This document shows positions 39,459 to 46,640 of a stretch of 64,000 bases of DNA, piece by piece. The notes beneath the pieces are model-generated. The model was not told where the DNA came from and made no database searches. It saw only the letters and a program-made list of their open reading frames with translations. The number at the start of each line of letters is the position of its first letter. Position 1 is the stretch's first letter. Position numbers and translations under genes: made by a program. The DNA comes from Orbilia blumenaviensis (Eukaryota; Ascomycota; Orbiliomycetes; Orbiliales; Orbiliaceae). The stretch lies in contig JAVHNS010000001.1 in NCBI GenBank assembly GCA_036872755.1, positions 992,001-1,056,000 of the forward strand, read 5' to 3'.

Positions 39459-40309
39459 CTAAGCCGTAACCCCCAAAAACTTCAAAAAGGCCACCGTAAC
39501 AACCCCGCCATCATGCGGCAACCCACCCCTCCCAATCCCATCATTCCCAACATCCTCCGAAATAACCCCACTCTTGATCCTCAAATTCAGTAGTTCCTTA
39601 ATAATCTCCTCGTCGAATTCAGGATGTCCCTGGACGGTGAATACCTCCCCGGGTCGGTATAGTGAATGAATCCGTGTTTTGGAACTTGACGCCAGTATTT
39701 CCATGTTTGAAGGGCAGGTTTGGACGATGTCGCGGTTCATCAGGTGGAGGGTCTTTTCGATCCCACATGCATGTTAGCACTATTACCCCAAGAAGAAAAA
39801 AACCCGGACATAAAAGCTTGAATATATATATATATATAATATAGAGAAAGACTTACAATACCATCCTTCCCAAAAACCTCCCTCCCCTTCTCCCCCAACA
39901 CCAACTCCGTCGGCGCAACCTCCCACCCATTCTCATTCCTCCCAACCTCCGCCCCCAAAGCCCTCCCCACGATCTGATGCCCAAAACATATCCCAATAAC
40001 CTTCTTCCCCCTCGCAACACACTCCCTCACAAACCCCACCAGATCAACGATCCACTTATCATCACCCCACGCATTATATCTCGACCCGGAGATCAAGATC
40101 CCATCGAAGTCATCATTTTCTATAGATGGTAATCGTTCCTCGGCGTTGTAGCCTACTATCTTGATCGAGCTGCGTGGGATGTTTTGGGAGTCCGCGGCGG
40201 TGGCGAAGAGGGTTTTCCAGACGCCGGTGTGCCCGCCGCGGGTTATGCGGGCTTCGTCGAGGGGTTGGTCGCATTCGAGGACGGCGAGGGTGAAGGGTTT
40301 TGATGCCAT
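39459..40309 (-). CDS. Class I glutamine amidotransferase-like protein
   Basis: Two exons (40309-39857 and 39752-39459) give 248 residues. The protein resembles the free-standing GATase1 proteins of fungi (yeast YLR126C type) and gamma-glutamyl-peptide hydrolases of plant GGP type. The nucleophile elbow is GICFGHQ, and the His/Glu of the triad are in VQGHPEFDEE. FDGILISGSRYNAW is the oxyanion strand region. The intron sits between the nucleophile half and the His half; GTAAGT to AAG|ACC keeps frame. The intron contains a TA microsatellite. Its function may be hydrolysis of gamma-glutamyl bonds or detoxification; the specific substrate is unknown. Confidence 0.85.
39821..39840. repeat. (TA)n microsatellite in an intron
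   Basis: An uninterrupted TA run lies inside the intron of the amidotransferase gene. Confidence 0.85.
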
Positions 40310-41607
40310 TTTTCTTTTTCTTCTTCCTCTTATTCTTCTTCTTTAATTCCTTAATTATTTCTTTCCTTTGTTTCTTAATTATTTTTGTGAAGTATACGTA
40401 AGTACCTAGGTATGTAGGTAGGTACTTGCCCGCGCAGATTTAATATTTTTTATAAACGATGTCGCAACGTCATGGTATTAATTTAGAAGCTTCGGTTCCA
40501 TGGTTTTTTCTTGACAACCCTGAAACGGTATAAACCTAGTTAAGCTGCAACCGTGGATAGCCGAAAAGGGAAGCTGACAATCAGCGACAGGGGGAAGGAA
40601 GCTCGGTTGAATCGACGAAAGTTTATAGCGTCTAAGTTACCTAGGCACTCGATACAACGATTAAATATGTATAAATACGCTTATCTAAAGCTCAATTGCC
40701 AATATTATATTCATATTATTTTATTCCCAGTTAGGTACCTATAATCAGCCACAATTTAAAAAAAAAAAAAAAAAAAAAACCGCAACAAAAACAACATACA
40801 ACGCAGTTCTACGTTGCATTTTTCTCCCTCTCTCTTAAATACGAACTTCCACCCCTCGCAGACTTCCAAAAAAAAAAGGGCCGGAACCCTTAATTAAGTT
40901 CCTCGTTTGGTAAAAAATGTATACATAATGTCTTTTCCTCAAATGCACGAAATTGTATTCTTTAAATGAAGAAAGGTAATAATAGCTTATGAATGTCAAC
41001 AGTTAAATGAATTAATCTTAAATCATAATAACCAGTAGGTATCTATCTATCCAATACCCCAAAAATGAACCCATTCTACCCTCTAAGCCCATCTCATATA
41101 CATATAACCCAAAAACAAACAAACAAAAAATTAAAAAAAAATAAGAAAGTAAAAAAAGACAAAAAGCGATTATACATTAAAAGACCCCATCCCCAACCTG
41201 GAGGACGTGTCCGGAAATACATCCTTTTTTTGTACAAACCCAACAAAAGCCCTCAAAAGACCAAAATATCAACTCGTCTAGCAAGTCAAATATCCAATCC
41301 CAAAGACCCTGCTAGTAAGTAAGTATAAAAACAAAAAAAAAAACTATTATACATTAAAAGACCCCAAAAATTAATTCTCAAACCTGGAGATTTTGTGTCC
41401 GGAAATACATCCTTTTTGAAAATATATATCTATATATCAAAATGATAGAAAGCTGATCAAACAGCCCCGAGCTAGCGGGTTATGATCGCTTTTATCATTG
41501 ATATATGATGTAAAAGAAAAAAAAAAAAACAAAGGAAATTCGTAAAGATATCATAACCATCCATCGATCCATTAGCAACCATCCTTCTGCTCATAAAGAG
41601 AGAAGCA
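40310..41607. other. Intergenic, with poly-A and a two-copy direct repeat
   Basis: No gene is supported. A poly-A run of about 22 lies at 40758-40779. A direct repeat occurs at 41169-41229 and 41346-41416 (separate entry). The stretch lies downstream of the hairpin array relative to the - strand. Confidence 0.5.
41169..41416. repeat. Two-copy direct repeat, 61 and 71 nt
   Basis: Copy 1 is 41169-41229 and copy 2 is 41346-41416. Both begin with ATTATACATTAAAAGACCCC, share AACCTGGAG in the middle and end GTGTCCGGAAATACATCC plus T run; the internal spacers differ in length and sequence. Conservation in separated blocks rather than overall similarity suggests a constrained element. It lies 0.2-0.4 kb beyond the hairpin array on the - strand and could belong to the same transcript or its 3' end. 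Confidence 0.8.
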
Positions 41608-43020
41608 TAGAAGAAGATGAACTCTCGCCTCGAGCGGGTAAACATCTCTTCTATCTCCCTCCCTTAAGGCCTTGCAAATAAGCAAGAAAGAGTAGAAGAA
41701 AAGGAAAAAAAAGGCCAACTCATCGCATCGAGCGGGTAAAAGCCCTTTTCTCATTATCTACTTCTCCCAGGAGGTATACACTAAAACCACTATAATACTA
41801 GCAGAGAGCCAACTCATCGCATCAAGCGGGTAAAAGCCTTCTGTATAGCAGGTTGTGTATATATTAAGGTTTGCCATATAAAAATGGATTATAGGAGGTT
41901 TTTTTTTTGGATAGATAGACGCGCGGGGATGTATAACAGATGAACTCATCGCCTCGAGCGGGTAAACACCTGTTGCCATCCGGCGTACTATCCTTTTTTG
42001 TTTTTTTGGAGATTTTTTTTTAACCTTTTTTAAAGAAGGGAGGTTCGTAAACGGTCGTTATTCATTAAGAATGGTGCGGATGATGGAAATGGTTTGGTCA
42101 ACTCGTCGCATCAAGCGGGTAAAAACCTCCCATGTTGGTAATATAATTGCGGTGGTGGTGATGGGGTTCGTAAAAAATCGTAAGAAGTCGTAAATTTCGT
42201 TATATCGGACAGAATTTTTAAGAATAAAGTAGACTAGTCGCATCAAGCAGACAAGCACTACTTCCTCCCCATCTTCCAGAAAAATTCCTTGCAAAAAGCC
42301 CATTCAAAGACAAGAGATCAACTCATCGCATCGAGCGGGTAAAAACCTCAGGTCCTTAAATAAAAGCCATACAAGAAAAAGAAAATCCGGAAGATATAAG
42401 AATCTCAAGTCGAGAGAAGTCCGTAGACGAAAGCTCACCAGCCGAAATATATAATATGATATATATATATAGTGAACTCAGATCGCATCTAGCGGGTAAA
42501 CACCATACAATATAATATATATGTATAAACCACCCCGGCGGCTCCATCATCGAATACAGTCAATCGACTAAAGAATAGAGAGAGAGAGAAGGAAAGAAAC
42601 GAGATAATCCCCGGAACTCCTACTGGAAGGCTCCCAAGACAGGACATCTCGAAAGAAAGCTAGGGGAGTATAAGTATAACTGATCAACTCATCGCATCAA
42701 GCGGGTAAAAACCAGTCATTCCATCCATAGCGATCGACGGTATAGATGTCTATATCCCCTTCCCTCTTCCCCCAATCCCTTGGAGTAAAAGAAGAAGAAA
42801 AAGGTTTATCGGAAGAAGAATGGAGATGAACTCATCGCATCAAGCGGGTAAACATCCACCATGTAGGGGCCAAAAGGACCGGGAAATGATCAACTCGTCG
42901 CATCAAGCGGGTAAAAACCATTCCCAAATCCCGTCGGAGTAGTAGAAAAATAGGGAGAAATGGATGAGAAGAAGAAGAAATAGTGAACTCATCGCATCAA
43001 GCGGGTAAACACCATCTTCA
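41608..43020 (-). repeat. Array of 12 irregularly spaced hairpin elements with a conserved core
   Basis: Units lie at 41608-41653, 41703-41750, 41801-41844, 41933-41974, 42089-42133, 42227-42263 (degenerate), 42309-42354, 42465-42512, 42676-42719, 42819-42862, 42881-42925 and 42971-43020. The core on the + strand includes CTCATCGCATCAAGCGGG followed by TAAA; within it CGC and GCG can pair around a 5-nt loop. The flanks are not conserved in sequence but are complementary in each unit (for example the last unit has TAGTG before the core and CACCATC after it). Read on the - strand, flanks form stems of up to 10 contiguous pairs (units 2, 9, 11) because + strand A.C oppositions become G.U. Spacers (about 63-211 nt core to core) are unrelated. 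The core falls in different reading frames, so it is not coding. It begins 48 nt after the stop of the secreted-protein gene at 43068, so it probably lies in that gene's 3' UTR or a - strand non-coding RNA. Confidence 0.85.
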
Positions 43021-43067
43021 TCCACCAAACCTAGACCCCATAATTATCATTATAATATTATAGTTTT

Positions 43068-43667
43068 TTATGGCGCAGCAGCCAACAACGGCACCAAAAC
43101 CCCAGGCATCCGACTCTCAAAGACCAACTGATCCAGCTGTCTCTCAAAAGTCCCCGGCGGCTGAAGCGTAATCCGATCCCAAATGGTATCAGGCACTTCC
43201 TCCAAAAACTTCCTCTTCTGAGCACTGAGTTGAAGAGTAGGATCAGTCAAGACCTCCTCTTTCAACTGCTGTCCCTGAGTACCCGTTCTCCCCGGTTTAA
43301 AAGCAAGCGGTGATCTTGCTCCGGGGGGGATTCCACCGGGTCTTGATGGTCCCATGTTGTTGTTATTATCATTATTGTTATTTGTTGACGGTAGTGGTGA
43401 TGATGATTGTGCCGGGAAGGCTATAGGAACGACGACTGGCGTCGGTGCTATAGTTGGAAACCCGACGTCCTCGTGCTTAACCGCACCGGGACCGTTATCA
43501 TCAGATGCAACCGTCCCAGGTGAAACCAGCGCAGTACCAGACGTTATAGGAACCACGATCTCGCTTGTCTGGCGCTTGTCCAGAGAAGCGCCATTGGCGA
43601 TTGGCAGTGCAGAGGAAGATGCGGAGGCGTATGCAATTGCGATCAGAACTGCGGTTGAGACCTTCAT
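43068..43667 (-). CDS. Small secreted protein with possible Kex2 sites
   Basis: A single exon gives 199 residues; no family is recognised. Residues 1-20 are a clear signal peptide (MKVSTAVLIAIAYASASSSA). Dibasic sites follow at DKR (about 30-32) and QKR (about 151), the kind cut by Kex2 in the Golgi, which would release a middle segment of about 120 residues and a carboxy-terminal segment of about 48. The middle contains a low-complexity Asn/Asp run and Pro/Gly-rich PSRPGGIPPGARSPLAF. No cysteines are present, which is unusual for a secreted effector. No internal peptide repeats are seen, so it does not look like a repeat-type RiPP precursor. A TA microsatellite lies 50-70 nt upstream of the start, and the hairpin array begins 48 nt past the stop. 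Confidence 0.7.
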   Translation of the reverse strand: MKVSTAVLIAIAYASASSSALPIANGASLDKRQTSEIVVPITSGTALVSPGTVASDDNGPGAVKHEDVGFPTIAPTPVVVPIAFPAQSSSPLPSTNNNNDNNNNMGPSRPGGIPPGARSPLAFKPGRTGTQGQQLKEEVLTDPTLQLSAQKRKFLEEVPDTIWDRITLQPPGTFERQLDQLVFESRMPGVLVPLLAAAP

Positions 43668-46640
43668 CTCTTTTGGAGACTGTTAGAATAAGGTAATTGA
43701 CTGAAAATGGTAATAATATATATATATATATATATATTTTCCGGGTATTCGTAGATTGGATGGTTAGAGAGTTTTTGAAAAAGAGACCTGCCTTATATGT
43801 ATAAATCTTCCTTCACAGAGGTATTAAACAGATATAGGAAGATGAAGAAGAAGGAAAAGAGAAGAGTTAAAAGACAAAGGGAAGCAGTCGTTGTGATCCA
43901 TTCCCAGTGAGCTGAACCGATGTCTCCAGCGAATGAACTGATGATGATACTAAAAAGTTATTCTAGAGCAGGAAGGAACACTCCAATATATATAACATTC
44001 ACAACTACCCAAAACTGACATCTCAGAAAGAAAGAAAAAAGAAGCTCGCGATACCTAACACATTCTCAAGCCACCACCACGCATGAAAAAAAAAAAAGGA
44101 AGAAGCTGTCAGAGACAACCTGCCGCACATGCATTCCCCATCAATTGTGGAGGCGTAACATTCAGGGTCCTTTCAAAAAAGAACAAAAAAGCAATGCGAC
44201 AGACGCGACAAAATGCCCAGCCAAAAAGTAATTGGGCCAGTATGCAGTGAGCTCTATGGGGGGGGAAGAAAAGTTGATCTTGGCCATGTTTGGCATTTTT
44301 CCTTTCACGTCCCGACGTCTCGCGCGCACGTCTGCAGTTGCATAAATCCCATATCTTTTTCGAGGGCAAGCTTCGGCTAGTTCGGGTGGACCAGGGTATA
44401 ATTTCCAAACCTTAGCGGAAGGGGGGAGGGGGTTAGAATACTAACCTACTATTAACCCATTTTTTTTCCTTCTCGAAGCCTACCCACAAGGGTTTGTTTA
44501 CAATTCCAGTTAAGAAAAATAGAGAGAGCTAACTACTATACTCACTAGCGGGCGTTGAAAGACTGTTATTTTTTTTCGAGGGTGGTTGAACAATTGAATT
44601 TCAATTGGGTCCTGCATTAGTGTCAGGGCGAAACCGCAGCAAGTACAACCAACCCCCGTCGCATCACGGTTCACCCTCTAACACCACCATATAGTGCCAC
44701 TAGAAGACCATTAGGTCTAGGCTCTCTCCCCCATAAAACAACCCTGCGCCTCTTCCCCTCAAAAAAAAAATACGGCATACCGGCGCCTCTAGAGGCACCA
44801 AGAGGCACCAAGAGGCCACAGTGAAAGTAAAAAAAAAAAGTGTCAAAAACGGGCAGGAAGTAACGCCACAAGCTTGTTTCCTTGTATCGTATCGTATCGA
44901 TTATGTCTTTTGATATTATTCAGATTTAATAATTTTTCTGAAATAGGCATTAGACTAGGCTGAGGAAGGTATCGTGCGTGTTTGATCATATTTTACTCCC
45001 AGACTGCTGCTACTGCGATAGTGAAATACCGTTAGATGTTCATTTGAACACTAAGTAAATTATAATTAACCTCTCCCCTTCATACGAGGAGGCTCTTTTG
45101 GTTAGCTGGACTAAGGCAGGGCAAGGCAAGGTAAGGTAAGGTACCTTGCATCACTGCAAAGCTTTGAGGGAGGGTTTTGTATCGTCAGGAAACGTATGCG
45201 GGAGACAGCCATATCTAGCTAGATACATGCATATACGTATATACACGGCGCTTAAAAAAAAAAAAACGATCAAATCAATCAAATCCCTTTAAAAAAAAAA
45301 AAAAAAAAAATTACCAGACGATAGCCAAAGCTAAATGTCTCTACCAAACCTCATCTCAAACCCTCATCCCAAAACCCATGAACCCCCCAAGACCAGAGGT
45401 CGACTTCCAGAGCTCTCTCGATATCAACGGTGTAAGATCTTCGGATTCCAAACCCAAACTAAAAGAGAGACCCCACACTCAAACCAGACAAGATCTTAGC
45501 TAGTAGCTAGTAACACCTGCAGCATGTCTTAACTACGGGACGATCTTAATATACCATCATATGTAAGTACTTAAACGCCCCCCCCGTTACCAATAATACT
45601 AATTCTAGCTCTAACACTAAAACACCACCATGTCGCCGGTATCTGTTCAGCTGACAATCACATCACATTATATCATGATATCATCCCATTACATTAACTC
45701 AAACCCCAAAATCCTCATATCATATTTAGAAGCTTCAAAAAGAGGCAGTTGGGTAGGACTTAAACATAATAAGAATTGAGTCAAATGGATCCATTATTAC
45801 AGGATCGAATCGAATCGAATCGATTGATTTTACATAGCCATACTTGGACGTATCGTAGTATAATTTAAATTAGAATGATACCGCAGCAGATGTAATGTGA
45901 TGGTAATATCATGTCAAATTTTAGGTATATAAACAAGCAATGAGTAAGTAATAATAATAATAAAAAAAGAGGTATAACTCAAAAAAGAAGAATTTTAAAA
46001 AAAGGGGGCTATAAAAGTAATAGACAAGAAGGTTAATAAGCGGCGGTCGAAATAAAATAAAAAGGGTAGTAGAAGAAATAGAAAAACAGCAAAGTATAGC
46101 ATCATCCCGGCCAGCTAGCTTAATAATAAGACTAAACACTAAAATAAAATACTCCTTTGTTCGATGCGCAAATACCAGGAGAGAGGAGAAAACCCCCAGA
46201 TACATATGAATAAATGGATGGATGGAAGGTACTTTAGTTAGCGGCAGCAAGCAGTGTCTTTTGAATAGCAGAAAAAAATGTGAGTTTTGGTTATGCAAAG
46301 GGGACATGTCGTTGACTTCTAAATCACGAAAGAACAACCTCTTTCTTTATTTTCAATTCATGGTTTCGTGAATGCTTTGGATGGGAAAACAAAGAGACAA
46401 AAGTAGGGAGATAAACCCCTCCTTCTCTTCTTTCATCTCATCGATGCAAAAAAAAAGAGAAATCCCGTGGGGGAAGCGGGAGGGGCCGTTTTCTTTTCGG
46501 ACAGAAAGGAGATTAAAAGAAAGGTAAAGGAAAAAGAAAAAAAAAAGACAATTAACACCTTTGAAGAAGAATACCCATTAAAGAAAAAAAGATGATCAAG
46601 ACAAAAAAAGAGGAATACGCCACAAACACGCATCACGCAA
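43668..46640. other. Long intergenic region with simple repeats
   Basis: No gene is supported in about 3 kb. Visible features are a TA run at 43716-43737, a short tandem AGAGGCACCA duplication at about 44790-44815, a run of GGCAAGGTAAGGTAAGGTA type at 45117-45145, a poly-A run at about 45290-45310, and a tandem GAATC run at about 45804-45822. Minus-strand frames at 46337-45921 and 46690-46433 are poly-F/poly-L translations of A/T-rich sequence and are rejected. Confidence 0.45.

Follow-up and report, generated by a model that had tools for sequence, protein, structure and literature searches.

A twelve-copy array of hairpins with a near-invariant core and covarying stems in Orbilia blumenaviensis

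Known hairpin arrays and the Orbilia locus

The iron-responsive elements (IREs) of transferrin receptor 1 are several hairpins within one 3′ UTR that combine a constant loop region with differing stems and are read by one protein family, the IRE itself being marked by a CAGUGN apical loop and a C bulge. The Xist A-repeat places many copies of a core of about 26 nt in one RNA, separated by variable spacers, and the bacterial CsrB/RsmZ sponge RNAs offer a short constant GGA loop motif to one protein on an array of hairpins. Five IREs are carried by the human transferrin receptor 1 mRNA (PMC6365501), and the two-dimensional structure of the Xist A-repeat is treated in PMC2796953. In a screen that started from five fungi, Gao, Jones and Rivas (2021; PMC8216456) described covariation-based RNA structures in the 3′ UTRs of little-known fungal genes and proposed RNA-binding proteins as their readers.

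Here we analyze an array of twelve hairpin units at positions 41608–43021 of a 64,000-nucleotide stretch (the window) of nuclear DNA from the nematode-trapping ascomycete Orbilia blumenaviensis. The window lies within a 4.46-Mb contig of the 42.5-Mb assembly (23 contigs) that served as the genome searched. Like the transferrin receptor IREs, the array consists of many hairpins with a constant part on differing stems, in what would be a 3′ UTR; unlike them, it has a UNGAK loop, an internal loop of 6 × 7 nt, twelve copies, a fungal host and a partner that is putative. Its layout of many short-core copies with variable spacers recalls the Xist A-repeat, from which it differs in that every core is flanked by a covarying stem of its own, the sequence is unrelated and the array lies behind a protein gene. 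With CsrB/RsmZ it shares a series of hairpins with a common motif and, presumably, a protein that binds them, but the constant part is a 24-nt core in a fungus rather than a bacterial GGA loop motif. The structures of PMC8216456, compared by description, are not presented as an array, and the five fungi from which that screen started are all others. Among the matches listed from open-licence literature on the organism, on such arrays or on small RNAs, the array was not described. The element is new by sequence and fold; the way of working that we propose for it is already known.

The stop codon of an uninterrupted ORF of 199 residues (43068..43667, minus strand) ends 46 nt before unit 12, and gene and array both lie on the minus strand. 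In a protein search all 199 residues were identical to TWF730_000308 of O. blumenaviensis, whose deposited model has 5 extra N-terminal residues. A signal-like start and a KR dibasic site, both judged by eye, make the product a secreted-protein candidate, and it is probably a small, secreted protein. It matched no Pfam family, and no second copy of the gene was found in its own genome. The search returned seven matches including the window's own, the six named ones all being from Orbilia or Arthrobotrys; among named protein matches the gene therefore appears to be known only from Orbiliaceae. On the far side of the array the next gene is TWF730_000307 (39459..40309, minus strand), which is class-I glutamine amidotransferase-like. 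The two genes are separated by 2.7 kb, in which the longest ORFs listed (at a listing limit of 80 residues) have 85 and 81 residues. With ORFs of this length and core-to-core distances that hold no single frame, a coding repeat was rejected.

Fold, covariation and strand of the units

All units were scored with R1, a covariance model built from these twelve. Read on the minus strand from the stop codon onwards, they are unit 12 (42974..43021, the first past the stop codon, 63.7 bits), unit 11 (42880..42927, 62.1 bits), unit 10 (42817..42864, 58.9 bits), unit 9 (42674..42721, 65.2 bits), unit 8 (42463..42512, 55.7 bits), unit 7 (42308..42355, 60.6 bits), unit 6 (42220..42267, 44.8 bits), unit 5 (42088..42135, 56.0 bits), unit 4 (41931..41978, 59.1 bits), unit 3 (41799..41846, 62.7 bits), unit 2 (41705..41752, 65.8 bits) and unit 1 (41608..41654, 54.2 bits). 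An unfiltered R1 search of the window returned exactly these twelve, at 44.8–65.8 bits, with the next best at 13.0; because the model was built from the same units, this search shows only the absence of a thirteenth. The core measures 24 nt in ten units, 23 nt in unit 1 and 26 nt in unit 8, in agreement with an earlier note on this DNA that had read twelve units with a core of 23–26 nt. That note had also put the spacing at about 63–211 nt. The distances from core to core (98, 94, 132, 157, 132, 88, 157, 209, 143, 63 and 94 nt) are indeed uneven and share its lower end, the measured maximum being 209. The sequence AGCGGGTAAA, with at most one mismatch, occurs at 15 places in the window against 3.9 expected: 11 exact copies, all within the array, and 4 with one mismatch, all outside it. 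Two of the array spacers contain GGTTCGTAAA (42042–42058 and 42165–42181), which resembles the start of a B-box, a likeness that is probably due to chance.

On the minus strand the units take the form 5′-(stem)-UUUACC-CGC-UNGAK-GCG-AYGAGUU-(stem)-3′, with a variable stem of 9 bp, a conserved asymmetric internal loop, a stem of 3 bp and a loop of 5 nt. Both sides of the 6 × 7-nt internal loop (5′ UUUACC and 5′ AYGAGUU) are exact in nine of the twelve units. The others are unit 1, where one base is missing on the 3′ side, unit 8, where 2 nt (CT) are inserted on the 3′ side, and unit 6, whose core has diverged and whose own fold pairs most of the internal loop. The apical loop is UUGAU in seven units, UCGAU in two, UCGAG in two and UAGAU in one.

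Pairing and covariation were tested on the named structure of 9 + 3 pairs across the twelve units. Standard pairs fill 129 of 144 cells (89.6%), compared with 74.7% in shuffles, none of 500 shuffles being as high. All nine lower-stem pairs show double-sided changes. The covariation score is 0.558 as against 0.287 in shuffles (0/500 as high); sliding the partners by 1–3 columns gives no more than 0.260. The null here is these shuffles and slid partners and not a phylogenetic one. RNAalifold, run with no structure given, recovers the same pairs and one further outer pair. The second stem pair, for which the earlier note had reported a change from T-A to C-G in units 2 and 3, is T-A in ten units and C-G in those two. 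In the upper CGC/GCG stem a single change from C-G to U-G is the only variation, so that its support is folding and not covariation.

That the flanks of a unit belong to each other, as the same note had held, is borne out by exchanging 3′ arms among units: 93 of 108 lower-stem cells are paired on the minus strand, whereas swapped sets average 71.6 and none of 20,000 reaches that number. Restricted to the five outer positions, the count is 45 paired cells of 60, versus 32.9 after swapping (5 of 20,000 swaps as high). By duplex energy, eight of the twelve units have a better partner in their own 3′ arm than in any of the 11 foreign ones; as good as the own arm are four foreign arms in unit 6, three in unit 5 and one each in units 3 and 12. 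These data support the twelve units as one selected RNA structure in which a near-invariant core is carried on covarying stems, which upholds the central claim of the earlier note, that of a conserved core on covarying stems, as measured against shuffles and slid partners.

The same architecture bears on whether the array is a cluster of small-RNA (milRNA) precursors. Twelve hairpins in series on one strand would suit such a cluster, but the arms, from which the products would come, vary from unit to unit around a constant loop region, and beneath the large internal loop they pair over about 9 bp, so that we give this reading very little credence. The earlier note had offered a multivalent protein platform, a processing signal and a small-RNA precursor as functions; of these the platform is the likeliest, and the precursor fits poorly because it is the loop region that is constant and the arms that vary.

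The earlier note had read the core on the plus strand. The RNA structure likely reads from the minus strand instead, as the non-Watson-Crick pairs and the folding both indicate. On the minus strand the inner four pairs comprise 34 Watson-Crick pairs, 14 G·U and no A·C, and the nine lower-stem pairs comprise 69 Watson-Crick pairs, 24 G·U, 4 A·C and 11 other mismatches. Since G·U pairs of the minus strand would become A·C mismatches on the plus strand, an excess of G·U favors the minus strand. Arm-swapped sets equal the difference between G·U and A·C in 3,235 of 20,000 cases for the nine pairs, so that the nine-pair excess is partly composition, and in 25 of 20,000 for the inner four. Eleven of the 12 units, all except unit 5, fold with lower energy on the minus strand. 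The mean folding z is −2.07 on the minus and −1.31 on the plus strand, with the minus strand better by z in only nine of the twelve. In a context of 2.1 kb, the four inner stem pairs reach a probability of at least 0.9 in eight of twelve units on the minus strand and in one of twelve on the plus strand; in units 5, 6, 8 and 10 the hairpin is not dominant in this long-range minus-strand fold.

Strand asymmetry also bears on a reading at the level of DNA, according to which each unit is a protein-binding DNA core enclosed by an inverted repeat, as in a cruciform, an origin or an enhancer. Any inverted repeat pairs in DNA as well, and transcription of the array is presumed. Non-Watson-Crick pairs that are strand-asymmetric, even if partly through composition, argue against this reading, and an asymmetric internal loop with compensated stems lacks an obvious reason in duplex DNA; we consider a DNA-level element highly improbable.

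Occurrence in the genome and in relatives

No Rfam family matched the window at gathering thresholds, in keeping with the earlier view that the core belongs to no known RNA family. At E values up to 5, the interval 40500–43700 gave four matches, to three miRNA families and one sRNA family, all far under thresholds. An iron-responsive element was rejected, as no Rfam family reached its gathering threshold in the window, no IRE was among these four matches and the loops are UNGAK and not CAGUGN, and the self-cleaving ribozyme families were rejected on the same searches. The latter result concerns a further reading, in which the hairpins are processing or decay signals, cut by an endonuclease (of RNase III type or other) or self-cleaving, with many cuts per transcript. 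Small ribozymes and hairpins at nuclease sites also show a constant internal loop with variable stems. Nevertheless, the four Rfam matches of 40500–43700 at E up to 5 include no ribozyme family, and a single short hairpin with neither a third stem nor a pseudoknot is simpler than the known self-cleaving folds, which leaves such a signal improbable.

Three other identities were rejected. For an rRNA guide RNA, the minus-strand core was compared with 3 kb of the organism's own rDNA around the 28S start, 18S and most of 28S lying outside this stretch, and 90 of 100 shuffles paired as well; the plus-strand core in the same 3 kb was matched by 8 of 100 shuffles, which is not convincing. Pairing of the minus-strand core with its own coding region was equalled by 91 of 100 shuffles. 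As to telomerase RNA, no exact CCCTAA or TTAGGG occurs on the minus strand between 43100 and 40300.

Within the genome, an 18-letter core with at most two mismatches matched 2 places beyond the array, where a control pattern matched none, and a 22-place pattern with at most three mismatches matched 4 places outside, compared with 5 control matches. The latter pattern recovers 11 of the 12 units, so that copies elsewhere as diverged as unit 6, which has more than three mismatches, would escape it as that unit did. None of its 4 outside loci reaches E 10 with R1. A DNA search with 41000–43060 gave no second array, the matches listed being the query itself and an A-rich stretch of 41 nt, and R1 on 200 kb of samples from the genome gave a best score of 16.0 bits (E 0.45). 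An array detector (12-mers in at least 4 copies within 2.5 kb), applied to twenty 10-kb samples from two contigs, fired only in L066 (G000:C1:1-10000). That sample lies at the end of a contig and contains a field of diverged repeats, among them CCGACGCTTATT at 12 places; it may be subtelomeric.

As far as the pattern and DNA searches reach, the best candidates include no further copy of the core above chance in this genome. The earlier note had named copies at other genomic sites as evidence of mobility, and one core repeated twelve times might indeed be taken for mobile or satellite repeats. However, the units are not homogenized and their spacing is uneven, as that note had also argued in setting the array apart from a simple satellite; there are no further copies above chance, and none of the 19 other 10-kb samples holds a similar array. 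We find an origin as mobile or satellite copies scarcely credible.

In other genomes, a 17-letter core pattern matched 30 stretches in prokaryotes and 3 in viruses, with one copy each, and the chance expectation for prokaryote genomes is also 30 (257 Gb × 2 / 4^17). Among 41 preselected loci, R1 gave 30.6 bits to L017, 25.1 to L026 and 22.1 to L039 (E 7e-5, 0.002 and 0.014). We rejected these three as true relatives and take them as chance, because the loci had been preselected for 17 core letters; their scores lie below the 44.8–65.8 bits of the array.

Two orthologues of the secreted-protein gene gave another view of the relatives. The O. javanica model TWF718_001846 ends in ...CSVYPLDAI and the A. 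conoides model TWF506_006230 in ...MFTRLMR. VYPLDAI is the exact translation of the minus-strand core of unit 8 (GTT TAC CCG CTA GAT GCG ATC TGA) and MFTRLMR that of unit 10 (ATG TTT ACC CGC TTG ATG CGA TGA), in two different frames, with each protein ending at the stop of the matching unit. When both proteins were shuffled 1,000 times against the six array frames, a 7-residue match was obtained in 1 and a 6-residue best match in 11, anywhere in the sequence. A 6-mer in common with the six frames of 41100–43064 was found in 6 of 118 fetched proteins, including these two models. In the other four (P0037, P0042, P0080 and P0090) the common 6-mers are internal and unrelated, that of P0080 (ESSSSS) being of low complexity and overlapping the core end and arm of unit 1. 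A core-type C-terminal tail occurs in none of the other 116 of the 118, and a search with residues 181–220 of the O. javanica protein, which contain the tail, matched only itself. The five other models of the gene (seven in all with the window's own) hold no core translation, but their ends lie at the usual stop codon or close to it, so that they are no test of a core downstream. The two models with core-derived tails may be ab initio predictions, and so show the position of the core in the DNA and not transcripts. At least two further species most likely carry the core downstream of this gene and in the gene's orientation.

The setting is shared more widely. In all five species for which both tags come from one genome, the locus tags of the amidotransferase and secreted-protein genes are consecutive (blumenaviensis 307/308, megalospora 287/288, javanica 1847/1846, conoides 6229/6230 and musiformis 3801/3802); O. 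oligospora was left out because its listed tags come from different strains. Core-derived tails in two relatives and a consecutive flanking pair in five suggest that the element is probably conserved in place. Amidotransferase homologues are also present in Drechslerella, Dactylellina, O. brochopaga and A. flagrans, from which a shared-word search of annotated models matched no homologue of the secreted protein; as such a search needs shared words and annotated models, real absence in these four is not established.

Proposed function of the array

The array appears to be an undescribed RNA element that may be a docking platform for a protein. A constant core on stems that are free to change yet remain paired, in many copies on one strand directly behind a stop codon, fits a 3′ UTR that provides multivalent recognition. 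We therefore propose, at about even odds, that it is a 3′-UTR hairpin array that docks an RNA-binding protein, comparable with the IRE array of the transferrin receptor and unrelated to it. From the sequence we infer transcription through the array, its 3′-UTR status, a protein partner and an effect on the mRNA. A minus-strand transcript would contain the array as, or continuous with, a long 3′ UTR of the secreted-protein gene. The constant core of internal loop and apical loop would be read by one RNA-binding protein, with the stems merely presenting it, and twelve sites would allow binding of high avidity that is graded. Such binding might set the stability, translation or localization of the mRNA. 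A 3′ UTR of about 2 kb would be unusually long for a fungus, which counts against this proposal.

Further structured elements lie behind the array on the same strand. A very long AT-rich hairpin of about 25 bp folds at 41410..41530 (minus strand), and its GC-rich tip resembles the core by eye (UAACCCGCUAG). It is possibly a relic unit, one to which R1 lends no support: a thirteenth unit at 41447–41497, alike by eye, was rejected, since R1 gives just 5.5 bits to 41447–41470. Element E1 (41340..41424, minus strand) has constant ends GGATGTATTTCCGGACAC and GGGGTCTTTTAATGTATAAT, a CTCCAGGTT loop and its own inner stem, followed by a T-run; E2 (41160..41236, minus strand) is a second copy of this type with a different inner stem, also followed by a T-run. 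The 18-letter end of these elements has two exact copies in the genome (E1 and E2) and three places with 2 mismatches (control, 2).

These neighbors enter into the main rival to the 3′-UTR reading, a separate long non-coding RNA gene of about 2 kb on the minus strand, running from 43.05 to about 41.1 kb and comprising the twelve hairpins, the long terminal hairpin and the two E-type hairpins, which, acting in trans, would serve an RNA-binding protein as scaffold or sponge. The position of E1 and E2, the only two exact copies in the genome, on the same strand behind the array speaks somewhat for it; so does the 2.7 kb between the two genes, and it would suit a self-contained RNA that the units are tightly clustered, with no single copy above chance at other sites. 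Against this, the 46 nt from the stop codon to unit 12 leave scant room for a promoter of its own, and in two relatives this gene is most likely followed by the core as well. We regard a separate gene as possible, with less confidence than the 3′-UTR array.

More speculatively, and with considerable doubt, the 2-kb interval could be an architectural non-coding RNA specific to Orbiliaceae, with twelve near-identical docking hairpins and two of a second kind, made together with the gene or independently of it. The loops are palindrome-like, containing UUGA or UCGA in 11 of the 12 units, and pairing from loop to loop could condense such an RNA into a granule.

Returning to the 3′-UTR array as the favored reading, twelve copies at one locus amount to a built-in alignment, through which stem covariation can be demonstrated from a single genome; to our knowledge this is rare for eukaryotic 3′ UTRs or long non-coding RNAs. 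If it is a platform, it would rank with the densest arrays of hairpins known from any eukaryotic transcript, and the hairpin could be used directly as bait for the RNA-binding protein. The literature on carnivorous fungi, among the matches listed, holds no such RNA element. If the proposal is true, a lineage-specific, probably secreted protein of these fungi would be under post-transcriptional control by way of a multiplied RNA site.
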